Of a DNA stretch of 34,367 nt, positions 2,442 through 7,009 are shown piece by piece; within the stretch, counting starts at the first letter, position 1, and every line of letters starts with the position of its first letter. The translations under genes and the position numbers were made by a program. A model generated the notes under the pieces. That model did not search any database and was not told the origin of the DNA. It worked only from the letters and a program-made list of their open reading frames with translations. Origin of the DNA: a virus; IMG/VR virus record IMGVR_UViG_3300012920_000008, positions 1 through 34,367 of that record, one strand, 5' to 3'.

Positions 2442-2470
2442 TTGCAATTCTGTGAACGAGCGTTTACATT
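2442..2470 (+). promoter_or_regulatory. Early promoter P1 with palindromic operator
   Basis: -35 TTGCAA (2442-2447), a 17-base spacer and -10 TACATT (2465-2470). The spacer holds TGTGAACGAGCGTTTACA (2451-2468), a near-palindrome that also overlaps the -10. The same geometry recurs at 3862-3890 and 4494-4522. The inner GAAC-N4-GTTT matches the Gram-positive-type LexA box. The LexA-like protein encoded at 6736-6945 is the obvious candidate to bind it. Confidence 0.8.
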
Positions 2471-2528
2471 ATAACTGTGGTCAGGGGAAACCGGCTACAA
2501 ACAAGAGAGAAAACAGAGAGAGTCACAA

Positions 2529-2765
2529 ATGAACAAAGAAATGAAAACAGTAAAGGGTGTCATCAGCGTCGAGACTTACGGTACTGATGACGAGGGTTGT
2601 GCAGTGAGTGTCAAGCTTGACGGTGCTGAGATTGCTAACGGGGACTACGACATGTGGGCCAATGCGATCTTCCTGAACGGCTTTGAGAAAGCTTGCTTTG
2701 AAGACTTTGAGGAAGTGCTGCGGTACGCAGCGATGATAGTTTGTGACCTTGGGGCCGCTGCGTAA
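2529..2765 (+). CDS. Small early protein, unknown function
   Basis: A 78-residue acidic protein I do not recognise. It starts VKGVISVETYGTDDEGCAVSV, suggesting beta strands, and ends in an alanine-rich helix. It is the first gene after promoter P1 and has only a weak purine-rich (AGAGAG) leader. Its stop codon lies in the loop and start of the 3' arm of an intrinsic terminator, so termination and translation of the last codons probably interact. The next gene begins with a similar MNKE start but is otherwise different. Confidence 0.7.
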   Translation: MNKEMKTVKGVISVETYGTDDEGCAVSVKLDGAEIANGDYDMWANAIFLNGFEKACFEDFEEVLRYAAMIVCDLGAAA

Positions 2766-2780
2766 GCGGCCTCTTTTTTT
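2753..2780 (+). terminator. Intrinsic terminator overlapping a stop codon
   Basis: GGCCGCT (2753-2759), loop GCGTA, AGCGGCC (2765-2771), then TC and seven T (2774-2780). The TAA stop of the upstream gene (2763-2765) lies at the end of the loop. It would limit P1 transcription reaching the SprT-like gene, or couple it to translation. Confidence 0.85.
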
Positions 2781-2791
2781 GGGAGAGTGAA

Positions 2792-3031
2792 ATGAATAAA
2801 GAAGTGAAAGGTAAAACGCTTGGAATGGTTTTCTTTGGAACTAACAAGGAAACCGGCGACGAAGAAATTCTTGAGGTTTACATGCTCGCGCCTTGGGAAA
2901 GAAAGCTGGATGAAAAAGAGGCTTGCAAAATCCTGTTCGATAGAGTCGGCGGGTACTGGAACGCCAACGAAAAGTTCTTTGAGCGCCGAGGCTATGAAGA
3001 TTTTGGAATGAAATGTTTAGAGGTTGTGTGA
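2792..3031 (+). CDS. Small early protein, unknown function
   Basis: A 79-residue protein, charged, with aromatic residues in the second half (GGYWNANEKFFERRGYEDFG). I do not recognise a family. GGGAGAG precedes the ATG at a normal distance. It follows the 2753-2780 terminator and precedes the metalloprotease gene, so it depends on read-through from P1 unless another promoter exists that I did not see. Confidence 0.7.
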   Translation: MNKEVKGKTLGMVFFGTNKETGDEEILEVYMLAPWERKLDEKEACKILFDRVGGYWNANEKFFERRGYEDFGMKCLEVV

Positions 3032-3050
3032 TGGGTAAAAGGAGTTCGAC

Positions 3051-3860
3051 ATGACTACAGCAAAGCCTGAAAAAATCTCTGCTGATACAGTCAAGCTCAT
3101 TGAGTCAATGGTTCGCCGTTGCATGAATGAGTTGAAGAAGAAGCAGTACGAGCTTGGCATCAACAAGGCTGACGTTGACTACGCGGTCAAGGTCACACGG
3201 GTTGTACGCCGCGCTACTGGCGGTGCAACGTATGCCGGAGCAAACTCTATCCAGATCAACCTCGGCTACTGGCAACACCGCTCTGAAAAGGCGTACCACG
3301 AAGAGTACGAATCGTTCGACAAAGACCCGGTTATCGGTGGCGTGGTCACGTACAACATGAACGATAACCTGCTGATGTCAGTTGCCCATGAGGTTGCACA
3401 CCATGTTCAGCGCCGTAAGTGCAGAACCATTGCCCGGTTCAGCAAGACGCACCGCAAGCCACACGGTGACTGCTTCAAGTGGGTCTACCGTCAGCTACGC
3501 GCTACCATCGTTAACCCGGCAGTCGAGGAGTCTCGCAAGGCATGGGTGCAGGCCAACACGGTCAAGATGCCTGTGACCATCCACGCCAAGTCCGAGTTGT
3601 TCGCTGTCCTGTCTAAGAAGATGGACAAGCGCCGGATGCCAAGTCGCATCAAGAACGAGTGGTTGCAGTGCCAGTCACTAGCAAAGGGCAAGCGCGTGAC
3701 AGCCGAGTTGCTCGGCCACATCATCGGCGCTCTTGATGAGGCCAACCGCTCACTGTTCTACAAGTCACAGTTACAGATCGTGGGCAAGCGTTCTGTGACC
3801 AAGAAGCGTTACCTCGCAGGGCGGCGCATTAAAAAGCAACTGACAGCCTTGGCTGTCTAA
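3051..3860 (+). CDS. SprT-like zinc metalloprotease
   Basis: 269 residues. The motif HEVAH at 113-117 is a classic HExxH zinc site. About 20 residues later comes HGDCFKWVYRQL (138-149), matching the third-ligand H-G-x-x-F region of SprT/Spartan-like proteases. The first 100 residues are helical then strand-like, as in SprT domains. The C-terminal 100 residues are strongly basic, with no zinc ribbon visible, and could bind DNA. SprT-type proteins in cells cut DNA-protein crosslinks; in a phage early operon the target is unknown. AAGGAG precedes the ATG. A GACAGCC/GGCTGTC inverted repeat sits at the very end of the gene (3842-3857). Confidence 0.82.
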   Translation: MTTAKPEKISADTVKLIESMVRRCMNELKKKQYELGINKADVDYAVKVTRVVRRATGGATYAGANSIQINLGYWQHRSEKAYHEEYESFDKDPVIGGVVTYNMNDNLLMSVAHEVAHHVQRRKCRTIARFSKTHRKPHGDCFKWVYRQLRATIVNPAVEESRKAWVQANTVKMPVTIHAKSELFAVLSKKMDKRRMPSRIKNEWLQCQSLAKGKRVTAELLGHIIGALDEANRSLFYKSQLQIVGKRSVTKKRYLAGRRIKKQLTALAV

Positions 3861-3861
3861 G

Positions 3862-3890
3862 TTGACATCGTGTGAACGATCGTCTACACT
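3862..3890 (+). promoter_or_regulatory. Early promoter P2 with palindromic operator
   Basis: Consensus -35 TTGACA (3862-3867), 17-base spacer, -10 TACACT (3885-3890). The operator TGTGAACGATCGTCTACA lies at 3871-3888. It starts three bases after the -35 exactly as in P1 and P3. It drives the genes from 3923 on. Confidence 0.87.
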
Positions 3891-3922
3891 AAAGACTGAG
3901 TTGGTTAATTAAGGAGTGAGAG

Positions 3923-4165
3923 ATGACGTATTTCGATAGCGAACAACACGGCAAGGTAGTTGCCGTCGAGCGACTCAACAACAGCGCCAACGGCAACCCC
4001 CGATACGAGATCACTCTCGATTGGGGCGTGAAGTGCCGAACCGCTGCTGACGAGGGTTGGGTGTACGGCCTGAACTGGGACAACCTGATCGGCAAGAACG
4101 TGAAGGTTCTGACCCGTCGGCCCCGAAAAAATTTGATGATCTTGAGCATTGTGGAGGAAGCGTAA
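3923..4165 (+). CDS. Small early protein, unknown function
   Basis: 80 residues with alternating hydrophobic residues (GKVVAVERL, PRYEITLDWGV, KNVKVLTRR), which suggests a small beta-barrel such as an SH3- or OB-like fold. No family is recognised. It is the first gene after promoter P2, and AAGGAG lies close upstream of the ATG. Its stop overlaps the ATG of the next gene (TAATG), so the two are translationally coupled. Confidence 0.75.
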   Translation: MTYFDSEQHGKVVAVERLNNSANGNPRYEITLDWGVKCRTAADEGWVYGLNWDNLIGKNVKVLTRRPRKNLMILSIVEEA

Positions 4166-4497
4166 TGGGTTTGTGTTTAAGAGTAATGGGTAGCAAGTGC
4201 GGTAACGGCAGCTACAGCGACAACCATGACCGCATCGTTGTGGTCAATCTTGACGGGCCGTTTGAAGCTCGCTGCCCTGAAGAAGAGTATATGCTGGTTG
4301 ATGACCGGCCTTGTGGCCGCCCGTATCCAAAGCTACGCCCGGTCCACATCAACCGTCAGCCGGGTGAGGTTGGACCAATGTATAGCGGTAACTATGCCAC
4401 TGGTGACAGCCGCTTTAGCAAGGCTGTCGAGAAGATGGGCGGCGGTCCATACGGTGTGGTCCCAATCCATGATCGGATGGAAGTGCCATGGCGTTGA
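4165..4497 (+). CDS. Small early protein, unknown function
   Basis: 110 residues, rich in Gly, Pro and Arg with four Cys (C4, C12, C38, C50), so a metal-bound or loop-rich fold is possible but no zinc motif is convincing. The start at 4165 is chosen because it overlaps the previous stop and has GGAGGA about 6 nt upstream; an earlier in-frame start at 4057 would run through the preceding gene. Promoter P3 overlaps its stop codon. Confidence 0.7.
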   Translation: MGLCLRVMGSKCGNGSYSDNHDRIVVVNLDGPFEARCPEEEYMLVDDRPCGRPYPKLRPVHINRQPGEVGPMYSGNYATGDSRFSKAVEKMGGGPYGVVPIHDRMEVPWR

Positions 4498-4522
4498 TTA
4501 TTTGTGAACAATTGTTTACACT
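4494..4522 (+). promoter_or_regulatory. Early promoter P3 with palindromic operator
   Basis: -35 TTGATT (4494-4499), 17-base spacer, -10 TACACT (4517-4522). The operator TGTGAACAATTGTTTACA (4503-4520) is the most symmetric of the three copies, with one mismatched pair between half-sites. The promoter begins inside the last codons of the upstream gene. Confidence 0.85.
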
Positions 4523-4541
4523 GTAACTGGAGGTTAGTGAG

Positions 4542-4715
4542 ATGAAGATAAAGATGACATTGCAGGAGGCCCTCGCTATTTGCGGGTTCCCTGAACGTCG
4601 GGTCTTGCGCAATACGGTACATGCCCTAACTACGTTGGGCGACGGACGTACCCCGACGCAAGACCGCAAACTAGAAGCTGCCAAGATTGTCTTGGCCAAC
4701 TACCCAAAACTGTGA
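4542..4715 (+). CDS. Small early protein (57 aa), unknown function
   Basis: It begins MKIKMTLQEALAICGF and ends AAKIVLANYPKL, a helical, slightly basic protein. It is the first gene after promoter P3. GGAGG precedes the ATG by about 8 nt, which together with the tight fit between P3 and the next gene supports it as real. The sequence TLQEALAICGFPERRVLRN has a helix-turn-helix flavour, but I cannot assign a domain. Confidence 0.7.
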   Translation: MKIKMTLQEALAICGFPERRVLRNTVHALTTLGDGRTPTQDRKLEAAKIVLANYPKL

Positions 4716-4727
4716 GGAGAGATTTAA

Positions 4728-5003
4728 ATGAAAAATAAAGACTTTACACGCCAAGAGTTTCTTGGTGCTGCAACAGAAGCGAAAGCTGCTGCATTTCAGG
4801 CAATCATAAACTTGGTGCATTCGGACATATTCTGGGACCGGACAGCGCGCCAAGAGTACGACACTAGGCTAAAGCTTATTAAACTAGCCATGAATATTTC
4901 AGAGGGGCTGAACGCAGACGAATCAATATTCGTTGCCGAAGGTTTTGCTCAGGATGAATTTGAAAAGCGAAAAGCAGAAAACAACACATGGAGTACAGTG
5001 TAA
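4728..5003 (+). CDS. Small early protein, helical, unknown function
   Basis: 91 residues, predicted mostly helical by its spacing of charged and hydrophobic residues. The first half is alanine-rich (FLGAATEAKAAAFQAIINLV). GAGGAG lies about 8 nt upstream of the ATG. Its TAA overlaps the next ATG. No family is recognised. Confidence 0.72.
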   Translation: MKNKDFTRQEFLGAATEAKAAAFQAIINLVHSDIFWDRTARQEYDTRLKLIKLAMNISEGLNADESIFVAEGFAQDEFEKRKAENNTWSTV

Positions 5004-5239
5004 TGGAAGACAAAGACATGAAAACAGCACTGGTCCAGAGCTGGATTCAGAACATAGGAACTCAGATAGCAGAAGTGATTGGTAGCCTAGATACGTCAGT
5101 AGGATCATCTGACGGCTTACCACTTGGACCGCCAGTTTGGGAGGATGACGAAAGGCTTCAAGACTTTGAGAAAGTATATGCTCGGCTGGTCGGTGCCAAG
5201 GCAATCGTTGACGCTATGGCAGAGAGATATGAGGTTTGA
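5003..5239 (+). CDS. Small early protein, unknown function
   Basis: 78 residues, acidic. The middle is Gly/Pro-rich and probably loop-like (SVGSSDGLPLGPPVWEDDE), followed by a helix ending AKAIVDAMAERYEV. The start at 5003 (TAATG overlap, GGAG 9 nt upstream) is preferred over in-frame ATG 4988. Its 3' end overlaps the next gene by 11 bases. Confidence 0.68.
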   Translation: MEDKDMKTALVQSWIQNIGTQIAEVIGSLDTSVGSSDGLPLGPPVWEDDERLQDFEKVYARLVGAKAIVDAMAERYEV

Positions 5240-5474
5240 AGTTCGCGCCACTAGTTACGAGGAGGGCGGCAGCGTTGTCGCCCACAGGCAAAACCTGAAC
5301 TTCGTTGAGGCAGTGGAAGAGGTTGGCGGTTGGGGCATGACTGCACAGAGCGTCGGTGAGTTTGCCGAGCTGGTCCACAAGACCGCCTTTGAAGATGGCT
5401 ACCAGTGGGAAGACTGCTACATTGAGAAGATGGATGCTGACCCTTTCACTGTTTACATAGGAGTAGAGTGGTGA
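5229..5474 (+). CDS. Small early protein, unknown function
   Basis: 81 residues, acidic and aromatic (GGWGMTAQSVGEF, DGYQWEDCYIEKMDADPF). I do not recognise it. The ATG at 5229 overlaps the upstream gene's end and has AGAGAG just before it; an in-frame start at 5124 would lie deep in the previous gene. The TGA stop overlaps the GTG start of the following gene. Confidence 0.65.
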   Translation: MRFEVRATSYEEGGSVVAHRQNLNFVEAVEEVGGWGMTAQSVGEFAELVHKTAFEDGYQWEDCYIEKMDADPFTVYIGVEW

Positions 5475-5671
5475 CTATAGAAGACATGTCTTTGGCCTTT
5501 GCCAACCGCCGTATGCGCACACTGGAGGATCGTGTAGCAAAACTCAAGGGCTACCTACACGCTGCAATCAAAGAGGGAGAGAAGGAGATAGCCGAGCGCA
5601 TTGAGCTGACCATCGCTGACGATGAGTTGCTCATGTCTGAGCTGCAGGAGTTGATCAATGGACGTAGTTGA
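5471..5671 (+). CDS. Small coiled-coil early protein
   Basis: 66 residues, almost entirely helical with heptad-like spacing (LEDRVAKLKGYLHAAIKEGEKEIAERIEL), so probably a small coiled coil or adaptor. A GTG start at 5471 is chosen from AGGAG 7 nt upstream; GTG 5468 and ATG 5486 are alternatives. It overlaps both neighbours by a few bases. Function unknown. Confidence 0.65.
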   Translation: MTIEDMSLAFANRRMRTLEDRVAKLKGYLHAAIKEGEKEIAERIELTIADDELLMSELQELINGRS

Positions 5672-5801
5672 TATCTTCGTTTGGATCGCTGTGTTCCTGA
5701 TGATCTATGGACCACTCATGTTTCTGAGTTATCTGATCGACAAGGCGCTGCGTAAGTTAGGCAAGAAGGGTATTTACCCGGAGGGATACTTTAAATGGTA
5801 G
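5658..5801 (+). CDS. Small single-pass membrane protein (47 aa)
   Basis: One strong transmembrane segment covers about residues 3-27 (DIFVWIAVFLMIYGPLMFLS), followed by a short basic tail (DKALRKLGKKGIYPEGYFKW). By the positive-inside rule the tail should face the cytoplasm. AGGAG lies 8 nt upstream, and the gene overlaps both neighbours, as real genes in this operon do. Small early membrane proteins in phages can act in superinfection exclusion or host takeover; the role here is unknown. Confidence 0.68.
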   Translation: MDVVDIFVWIAVFLMIYGPLMFLSYLIDKALRKLGKKGIYPEGYFKW

Positions 5802-6739
5802 GTAAGGTAACGCCAGACAACATTGCAACCGGCTCAACGCTTGCTGCAATCATGGGCCACAACAAGTATCAGACACCGCTTGAGGCGTACAACAATGCGG
5901 TCAATGGGCGGCCTGAGTGGGTGCAAAGTCTCCCGGCAAAGATCGGTGACTTCATGGAAGACTTTGTCTTGACCGAGTCGGCTGAGATTCTTGGTCTGAC
6001 CGATCTTCAACTCGATCACTCAGAACCATATTTTTATGGTAAAGAAAGCAAAGCTTTTCTAGCTGTCAGTCTGGACGGTAAAGCAAGGGCCAACGAGCTG
6101 ACCGTGTATGATAATCCCGACAAAGGTATCTATGTGATCTCTGATAACGATTCGATTGTTCTTGACGGATGGGGCGTTCTTGAGGCCAAGACAACCAGAG
6201 TATCACCCCAGACAGTCCCTGATCTGTATCGCGGTCCACTGCAGCTACAAGCACAAATGCTGTGTACAGGAGCAAAGTGGGGTGCGGTGTGTACTCTGTA
6301 TCAGGGTAGTGAGCTGCGCATCTTTGTTTACAAAGCGAACCGCGAGATGCAAAAGCTGATCATTGAGGCAGCCAAAGACTTCCAACGGCGCGTTAAGGAA
6401 AAAGATCCGTACCCAGCTTTCTCTCCTGCCGAGGCGATAGAAAAGTATCCACCGGGAAAGGAGAAAAAAATTATCTACGCGGATGACTCTTTGTGCGACA
6501 AGGTGCGGCAACTCAGCCACATCAGGTCAGAGCTGAAGTCGTATGAAAAACTGGAAGAAGATCTACAGACCGACATCATGGAGACGATGAAGGACGCAGA
6601 CGAGTGCTACGCTGGCCATCAAAAAGTAATCTGGCCGGTGCGCAACATCAAGGCCAAGCCTGAACAGGTGAAGGTCATACCCGCTGTCGAGGCAGAGCAG
6701 AAGCGTGGCAAGACACTCAAGATCGAGGATATGAAATGA
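5795..6739 (+). CDS. YqaJ-type viral exonuclease (lambda-exonuclease-like PDDEXK)
   Basis: 314 residues. The order of motifs is that of the YqaJ/lambda-exo group: GDFMEDFV with an early Glu (about 55), SLDG at 92-95 with the metal-binding Asp, LEAK at 129-132 (E-x-K), and QLQAQ at 150-154. The last 100 residues are charged and helical. These nucleases degrade one DNA strand to leave 3' overhangs for annealing. No Red-beta, Erf or RecT partner is visible, so annealing may depend on the SSB-like protein or the host. GGAGGG precedes the ATG by 9 nt. Confidence 0.85.
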   Translation: MVGKVTPDNIATGSTLAAIMGHNKYQTPLEAYNNAVNGRPEWVQSLPAKIGDFMEDFVLTESAEILGLTDLQLDHSEPYFYGKESKAFLAVSLDGKARANELTVYDNPDKGIYVISDNDSIVLDGWGVLEAKTTRVSPQTVPDLYRGPLQLQAQMLCTGAKWGAVCTLYQGSELRIFVYKANREMQKLIIEAAKDFQRRVKEKDPYPAFSPAEAIEKYPPGKEKKIIYADDSLCDKVRQLSHIRSELKSYEKLEEDLQTDIMETMKDADECYAGHQKVIWPVRNIKAKPEQVKVIPAVEAEQKRGKTLKIEDMK

Positions 6740-6945
6740 AAGAGCATAATAAAAAGCTGCTTGATTTCATTAAGCAGTACATCAGCGACAACGGCTACGC
6801 TCCGTCATACACTGAGATGATGAACGGCACAGGGGAGAAGTCAAAGAACGGCATCTTCCGCAAGTTGAATGATCTGGAGGAGGGAGGATTTATTTTGAGA
6901 TCAAGTGGTAAATCAAGAGCGCTGGTAGTAAACTCAAATCACTAG
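6736..6945 (+). CDS. LexA-type winged-helix repressor without a peptidase domain
   Basis: 69 residues that align along their whole length with the N-terminal DNA-binding domain of LexA: LLDFIKQYISDNGYAPSYTEM, then the helix-turn-helix region (KSKNGIFRKLNDLEEGGFI), then the wing (SGKSRALVV). The LexA dimerisation and self-cleavage domain is absent, so RecA-triggered autoproteolysis cannot remove it. It is the last gene of the early operon, coupled to the nuclease by an ATGA-type overlap. The three promoters upstream in the same operon each carry a GAAC-N4-GTYT palindrome. I infer that it represses its own operon. Confidence 0.82.
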   Translation: MKEHNKKLLDFIKQYISDNGYAPSYTEMMNGTGEKSKNGIFRKLNDLEEGGFILRSSGKSRALVVNSNH

Positions 6946-6983: not shown

Positions 6984-7009
6984 AACCCCCTCTTCGGAGG
7001 GGGTTTTTT
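6984..7009 (+). terminator. Strong intrinsic terminator of the early operon
   Basis: CCCCCTC (6986-6992), loop TTCG, GAGGGGG (6997-7003), then six T (7004-7009). It lies between convergent transcription units. Leftward transcripts would form the same hairpin but have only two T after it, so it acts mainly rightward. The stop codon of the endolysin gene overlaps the T-tract. Confidence 0.92.

Follow-up and report, generated by a model that had tools for sequence, protein, structure and literature searches.

Proposed early timing in a small uncultured phage

Small marine and freshwater podoviruses that have no RNA polymerase of their own need some timing of early versus late genes, and the early region of the IMG/VR virus record IMGVR_UViG_3300012920_000008 raises the question of what a timer of this sort might look like. 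We analyzed positions 1 to 34,367 of that record (the window, a 34,367-nucleotide podovirus-like phage genome), in which a rightward cluster of small genes, from 2442 to ~7000, carries three promoters sharing an 18-bp near palindrome and has as its last gene one for a 69-residue protein that consists of the LexA DNA-binding domain alone. Judging from sequence evidence, this protein is likely to be a negative-feedback early repressor, similar to lambda Cro and Mu Ner, built on a LexA domain that cannot be cleaved. No regulator of this kind was found in the literature searched.

Three promoters with an operator in the spacer

The features on which this proposal rests are as follows.

2442 to 2470, + strand: promoter P1 (-35 TTGCAA, 17-bp spacer, -10 TACATT), preceding the first gene of the rightward cluster
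2451 to 2468, + strand: operator O1, TGTGAACGAGCGTTTACA, inside P1
3862 to 3890, + strand: promoter P2 (-35 TTGACA, 17-bp spacer, -10 TACACT)
3871 to 3888, + strand: operator O2, TGTGAACGATCGTCTACA, inside P2
4494 to 4522, + strand: promoter P3 (-35 TTGATT, 17-bp spacer, -10 TACACT)
4503 to 4520, + strand: operator O3, TGTGAACAATTGTTTACA, inside P3
6736 to 6945, + strand: LexA DNA-binding-domain-only protein, 69 residues, the proposed repressor (Pfam, AlphaFold, Foldseek)

An earlier reading of the same DNA (the original prediction) had described the near palindrome as starting three bases after the -35 element and overlapping the -10 element in each promoter, and this arrangement proved exact in 3/3 cases, with a TTGNNN -35, a TACAYT -10, and a 17-bp spacer throughout. 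The pattern TGTGAACNNNNGTYTACA has exactly three matches in the whole genome, O1 to O3, all on the + strand, versus none for the reversed pattern; each operator is 1 or 2 bases short of a perfect palindrome. That the genome holds no further copy was also borne out by a weight-matrix scan, where the three operators score 27.6 to 29.4, the next-best genomic site 10.4 (reverse reads of the same sites excluded), and the best site in 20 shuffled genomes 18.6. When 3 mismatches are allowed, the pattern is unremarkable (8 matches versus 5.5 expected). A de novo search ranked the operator family first among repeated palindromes upstream of the gene for the 69-residue protein.

The core of the window operators is GAAC-N4-GTTT, with GTCT in O2, and its likeness to a Gram-positive LexA box, noted in the original prediction, holds: the LexA boxes of Clostridioides difficile are mostly GAAC-N4-GTTT, and the Bacillus subtilis box is GAAC-N4-GTTC (PMC4234289), which is the core seen in the related contig L112 (see below).

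We also considered the 18-mer as a mere strong-promoter sequence and rejected this reading: the left arm is conserved although it is no promoter element, and in some relatives the distance to the -35 differs by one base while the arms and the -10 move together.

A LexA domain without its cleavage domain

Three further features bear on the expression of the putative repressor.

5795 to 6739, + strand: RecE/YqaJ-type recombination exonuclease (phrog_434, 4e-33; Pfam YqaJ)
2751 to 2773, + strand: terminator-like hairpin overlapping the 3' end of the first early gene
6984 to 7005, + strand: terminator-like hairpin closing the early cluster

The LexA-domain gene is the last of the cluster, and its start overlaps the stop codon of the RecE/YqaJ gene (ATGA). 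Its product matches the Pfam domain LexA_DNA_bind (PF01726) with an E value of 1.1e-13 over profile positions 8 to 65 of 65, where the protein ends; against full-length LexA (TIGR00498 of NCBIfam) it covers only positions 6 to 70 of 203 and scores 48 bits versus a cut-off of 110.95. The C-terminal Ser-Lys autocleavage and dimerization domain of LexA is absent. The AlphaFold2 model is a winged helix-turn-helix with three helices and a two-strand wing (predicted local distance difference test [pLDDT] score, 89.6), and all 9 of its Foldseek matches at E < 0.001 are LexA proteins, with 3k2z_B as the best one and the LexA-DNA complexes 3jsp and 3jso among them. Pfam and PHROG scans found no other regulator-like protein in the early cluster.

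The original prediction of an operon ending in such a protein thus stands with respect to the domain-only protein itself. The single operon does not: because the hairpin at 2751-2773 stands between P1 and the bulk of the cluster, this is not one simple operon, and P1 alone may not feed all of it. No terminator-like hairpin is found on the + strand between P2 or P3 and the LexA-domain gene.

Operators and LexA domains in related phages

The 69-residue and RecE proteins, used as single queries, gave no matches in viral contigs, whereas alignments used as queries later succeeded. Three relatives found by operator or by RecE carry 2 (L005, which forms one contig with L012), 3 (L013), and 3 (L107) spacer operators; the RecE proteins of L005 and L013 are 72 to 75% like that of the window. 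O1 recurs letter for letter in L005 despite different flanks, and the P3 slot of all three relatives holds the perfect palindrome TGTAAACAATCGTTTACA. One L013 operator stands in a new place, before a gene that has no operator-linked counterpart in the window. The L107 contig encodes a LexA domain (Pfam, 4e-10).

A search from the protein side, with an alignment of three LexA-domain proteins as the sole query, returned L270 and L272, new contigs with a long upstream stretch, whose proteins are 52 to 57% identical. Spacer operators are present in these finds as well, 3 in L270, 1 in L272 (in the P1 slot), and 1 in L268 (in the P3 slot), and the core in the early-promoter spacer of L270 and L272 is RAAC-N4-GTTY. 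L112, found through RecE, combines a LexA domain of 41% identity with a diverged box: the spacer of its homologous promoter contains GAAC-N4-GTTC. Thus, the P1 slot contains an operator-promoter in L005, L013, L107, L270, and L272 and the diverged core in L112. Shuffling the L112 region placed such a core at that promoter in 8 of 4000 shuffles, and a TTG-anchored core appeared in 0.2 to 1.6% of the shuffled promoter regions of the relatives; these values are not to be multiplied, as the promoter regions are homologous, with P2, P3, and the new slots counting as separate places.

At the first base of the half-site, the window carries G on its left arm and L112 carries G on both arms; in L107, L270, and L272 both arms have A. 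The recognition helices of the window and L112 share SKN, and those of L107, L270, and L272 have SKR. The half-site base co-varies with the recognition helix, although with so few independent changes this is suggestive only. The centre of the operator is R..Y in 16/16 phage sites (11 counted and 5 seen by eye). Taken together, the operators in relatives, the protein-side finds L270 and L272, and the diverged box of L112 favor the original proposal that the LexA-domain protein is the putative cognate repressor, and protein and operator co-occur in L107, L270, L272, and L112. In the relatives, the operator-promoter adjoins exchanged early genes, so that new cassettes would join the same regulon.

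A proposed device that ends the early phase

In the mechanism that we propose, P1, P2, and P3, which have the shape of sigma-70-type promoters, would be fired by the host RNA polymerase on entry. The 69-residue protein, encoded last in the cluster, would accumulate, and its dimer would bind the near palindrome in the spacer with the core RAAC-N4-GTTY, as the co-occurrence and co-variation suggest. Given the position of the operators, their occupancy should exclude RNA polymerase and shut the promoters, including those leading to the repressor gene. Because the cleavage domain is absent, neither RecA nor DNA damage would lift this repression, and the device would end the early phase rather than guard a prophage. 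The window proteins scanned against PHROGs, all but a few of the open reading frames (ORFs), yielded neither an integrase nor a second repressor, which fits a timing function better than control of lysogeny; the lack of an integrase match there also distinguishes the window from temperate switches of the CI type.

Lambda Cro and Mu Ner are small early autorepressors that have no inducer or cleavage domain and lower early promoters, including their own. The window resembles them in that operators sit in promoters (P2 and P3) leading to the repressor's own gene. It differs in having a LexA winged helix, Cro and Ner belonging to other fold families, and single operators in three separate promoters; an opposing lysogenic repressor was not found in the scanned proteins. 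With cellular LexA it shares the DNA-binding domain and the GAAC-N4-GTTC/T core known from B. subtilis and C. difficile, whereas the autocleavage and dimerization domain is missing, the regulon is that of a phage, and a RecA response is not expected.

Several points weigh against this proposal. L107 was found via its operator, and hence the presence of a LexA domain there is not an independent co-occurrence; the L005 and L013 contigs end inside RecE, short of the position of the LexA gene. A Pfam-supported LexA domain follows RecE in six further sequence types without this operator, and a de novo palindrome search in other LexA-domain phages gave no convincing multi-copy operator family. Bacterial promoters of RelE-type toxin-antitoxin modules carry a near-identical 18-mer at the same spacer position, which means that this type of sequence is not private to LexA. 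Finally, the C-terminal domain is the main dimerization domain of LexA. Its absence makes the DNA affinity of the 69-residue protein uncertain.

The closest precedent comes from the Bacillus phage GIL01: its gp6 is a phage-encoded LexA-domain-only protein, likewise without a cleavage domain, that binds a promoter palindrome and activates a late promoter (PMC6182141). Binding and regulation are thus within reach of an isolated LexA domain, though in this case as an activator.

Alternative repressors

A scan of 84,980 genomes for the promoter-operator pattern matched at least 80 stretches; most of the viral and genome matches other than the relatives described above are unrelated contigs or toxin-antitoxin promoters. 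According to the alternative that survives best, host LexA or another host repressor holds P1 to P3, in the manner of host LexA at GIL01 promoters, the early genes are damage-responsive, and the phage LexA domain acts elsewhere. The operator core is indeed a true Gram-positive-type LexA box, GIL01 has host LexA boxes in its promoters alongside the LexA-domain activator (PMC6182141), and the operator differences between phages could follow hosts rather than phage proteins. We nevertheless consider this scenario unlikely. Protein and operator co-occur in the search made from the protein side, and the nearest cultured phage by portal has a proteobacterial (Methylophilales) host; the Escherichia coli box, CTGT-N8-ACAG, is of another type (PMC4234289). 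Among the matches listed, toxin-antitoxin modules own many of the operator-bearing promoters, and inspection by eye, with no systematic test, recognized neither lexA nor recA behind the scan sites.

Those modules bring up a different candidate: the phage promoters might be bound by a repressor of the XRE type, for example a host antitoxin (TIGR02684). Modules with a RelE/ParE toxin and an HI1420-type antidote (TIGR02683/TIGR02684) are frequent in the scan and have a near-identical 18-mer, presumably bound by the XRE antitoxin of the module, in the same spacer position: among the matches listed, they account for 28 of 74 sites by a strict motif count and for 39 of 81 by a looser hand-made list, the 39 having been assigned by reading translations, with four proteins confirmed by NCBIfam. 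The central four bases, however, differ in kind, being Y..R in 36 of these 39 sites versus R..Y in 11/11 counted phage sites. Further, neither a RelE/ParE toxin nor an XRE gene or antidote of the HI1419/HI1420 type was found among the early proteins of the window in Pfam and PHROG scans, and we regard this candidate as quite improbable.

As an observation on the modules themselves, TIGR02683/TIGR02684 modules with TGTRAAC-YNNR-GTTTACA in the promoter spacer occur across many phyla, in bacterial genomes among the stretches L185-L264.

There is very little to recommend the 57-residue protein encoded directly behind P3 as the repressor in place of the LexA domain: the window, L005, L013, and L107 all encode it, and a ~40% identical copy occurs in L111, whose three promoters share a different spacer motif, but its predicted three-helix fold (pLDDT, 89) has no DNA-binding structure match, and L112, where the protein went undetected, keeps a LexA-type box. 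It is equally hard to credit that the LexA domain binds the operators but mainly activates, as gp6 does at its late promoter, or competes at host LexA boxes, because the gp6 site, GaCACAnnTGTGaC, is centred at -43.5 and overlaps the -35 of one late promoter (PMC6182141), whereas the window sites, with their LexA-box core, lie between -35 and -10 of three early promoters only and cover part of the -10, a repressor position.

Were the LexA domain indeed the early repressor, it would represent a second phage use of truncated LexA, in a repressor position as opposed to the activator one, and a protein-operator pair predictable from sequence would offer a directly testable timing circuit. The LexA domains and their boxes would make up a natural series in which to study changes in recognition specificity, and the addition of accessory early genes with control left intact would be accounted for.

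Genome and gene layout

The genome is judged complete because the ends of the window repeat 123 bp, which gives a unit of 34,244 bp. The genes for tail, head, portal, terminase, and lysis are oriented leftward. For the portal protein, MEP301, a phage of the OM43 clade (Methylophilales), gives the best match, at 64.5%; neither the LexA-domain protein nor the operator was found in MEP301, and no close DNA relatives of the window were found in the phage collection. Further genes of the early cluster are listed here.

2529 to 2765, + strand: first early gene, 78 residues; without a match in Pfam or PHROGs; P1 is followed by a homologue in L005, L013, and L107 as well
2792 to 3031, + strand: early ORF, 79 residues; no function assigned in Pfam and PHROG scans
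3051 to 3860, + strand: SprT-like (metalloprotease-like) ORF, 269 residues; Pfam PF10263 at 2e-4, under the gathering score
3923 to 4165, + strand: early ORF, 80 residues; phrog_20597, a family of no assigned function; L005 has this ORF but without its own promoter-operator
4165 to 4497, + strand: early ORF, 110 residues; no function assigned
4542 to 4715, + strand: the 57-residue protein behind P3; three helices, no known DNA-binding fold matched

L005 lacks both the SprT-like gene and P2. The sequence GGCCGC-TGCG-TAAGCGGCC of the hairpin at 2751-2773 also occurs in L005, L013, and L107, and hairpins that end single early genes suggest promoter-gene-terminator cassettes. In L111, terminator-like hairpins similarly stand behind several genes.

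Wider distribution

In a redundant set of 156 contigs or contig pieces that match RecE, 94 have a LexA-like small winged helix no more than 3 kb behind it; ~27 distinct LexA-like sequences score strongly, and a large further group (the L019 type) does not reach the Pfam cut-off. Pelagiphages HTVC103P, HTVC104P, HTVC106P, and EXVC031P Hodr also have short LexA-domain-only genes, named "LexA repressor," in a rightward cluster; these differ from the window in that identity is 29 to 42% and the 18-mer operator family was not found there. Tentatively, there may be a widespread class of lytic podoviruses in which a non-cleavable LexA domain behind RecE times early transcription through lineage-specific spacer operators and accessory genes arrive with a ready-made promoter-operator.

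Across many diverse small phages (L112-L179; for example, L115:10824-11042 and L136:10170-10379), a LexA-domain-only gene recurs immediately after the gene for a RecE/YqaJ exonuclease. Some of these have other inverted repeats in the promoter spacer: ATGGTAYCGTRATGGKRCCAT in the main early promoters of L115, L119, L120, L124, L125, L128, and L133, and TACCACAMTGGT in L135, L137, L138, and L142-L145, with ACCACAMTGGT in L137 and L142. It is possible that these repeats are operators of the phages' own LexA domains.

In L111, three promoters on the + strand (4834, 5709, and 6254) have a different spacer motif in common (TGTGCAGAACCTKCA, TTGAAGAAACTGCA), and near the cluster end (~7286) lies an XRE-like gene; this is perhaps the same design with another repressor. 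On a large phage contig of 178 kb, a promoter with the -35 TTGACA contains TGTAAACGATCGTTTACA in perfect form (L095:1184-1222), and ~12 kb away a protein with a LexA domain, at most 129 residues long, is encoded (L182:1468-1854).

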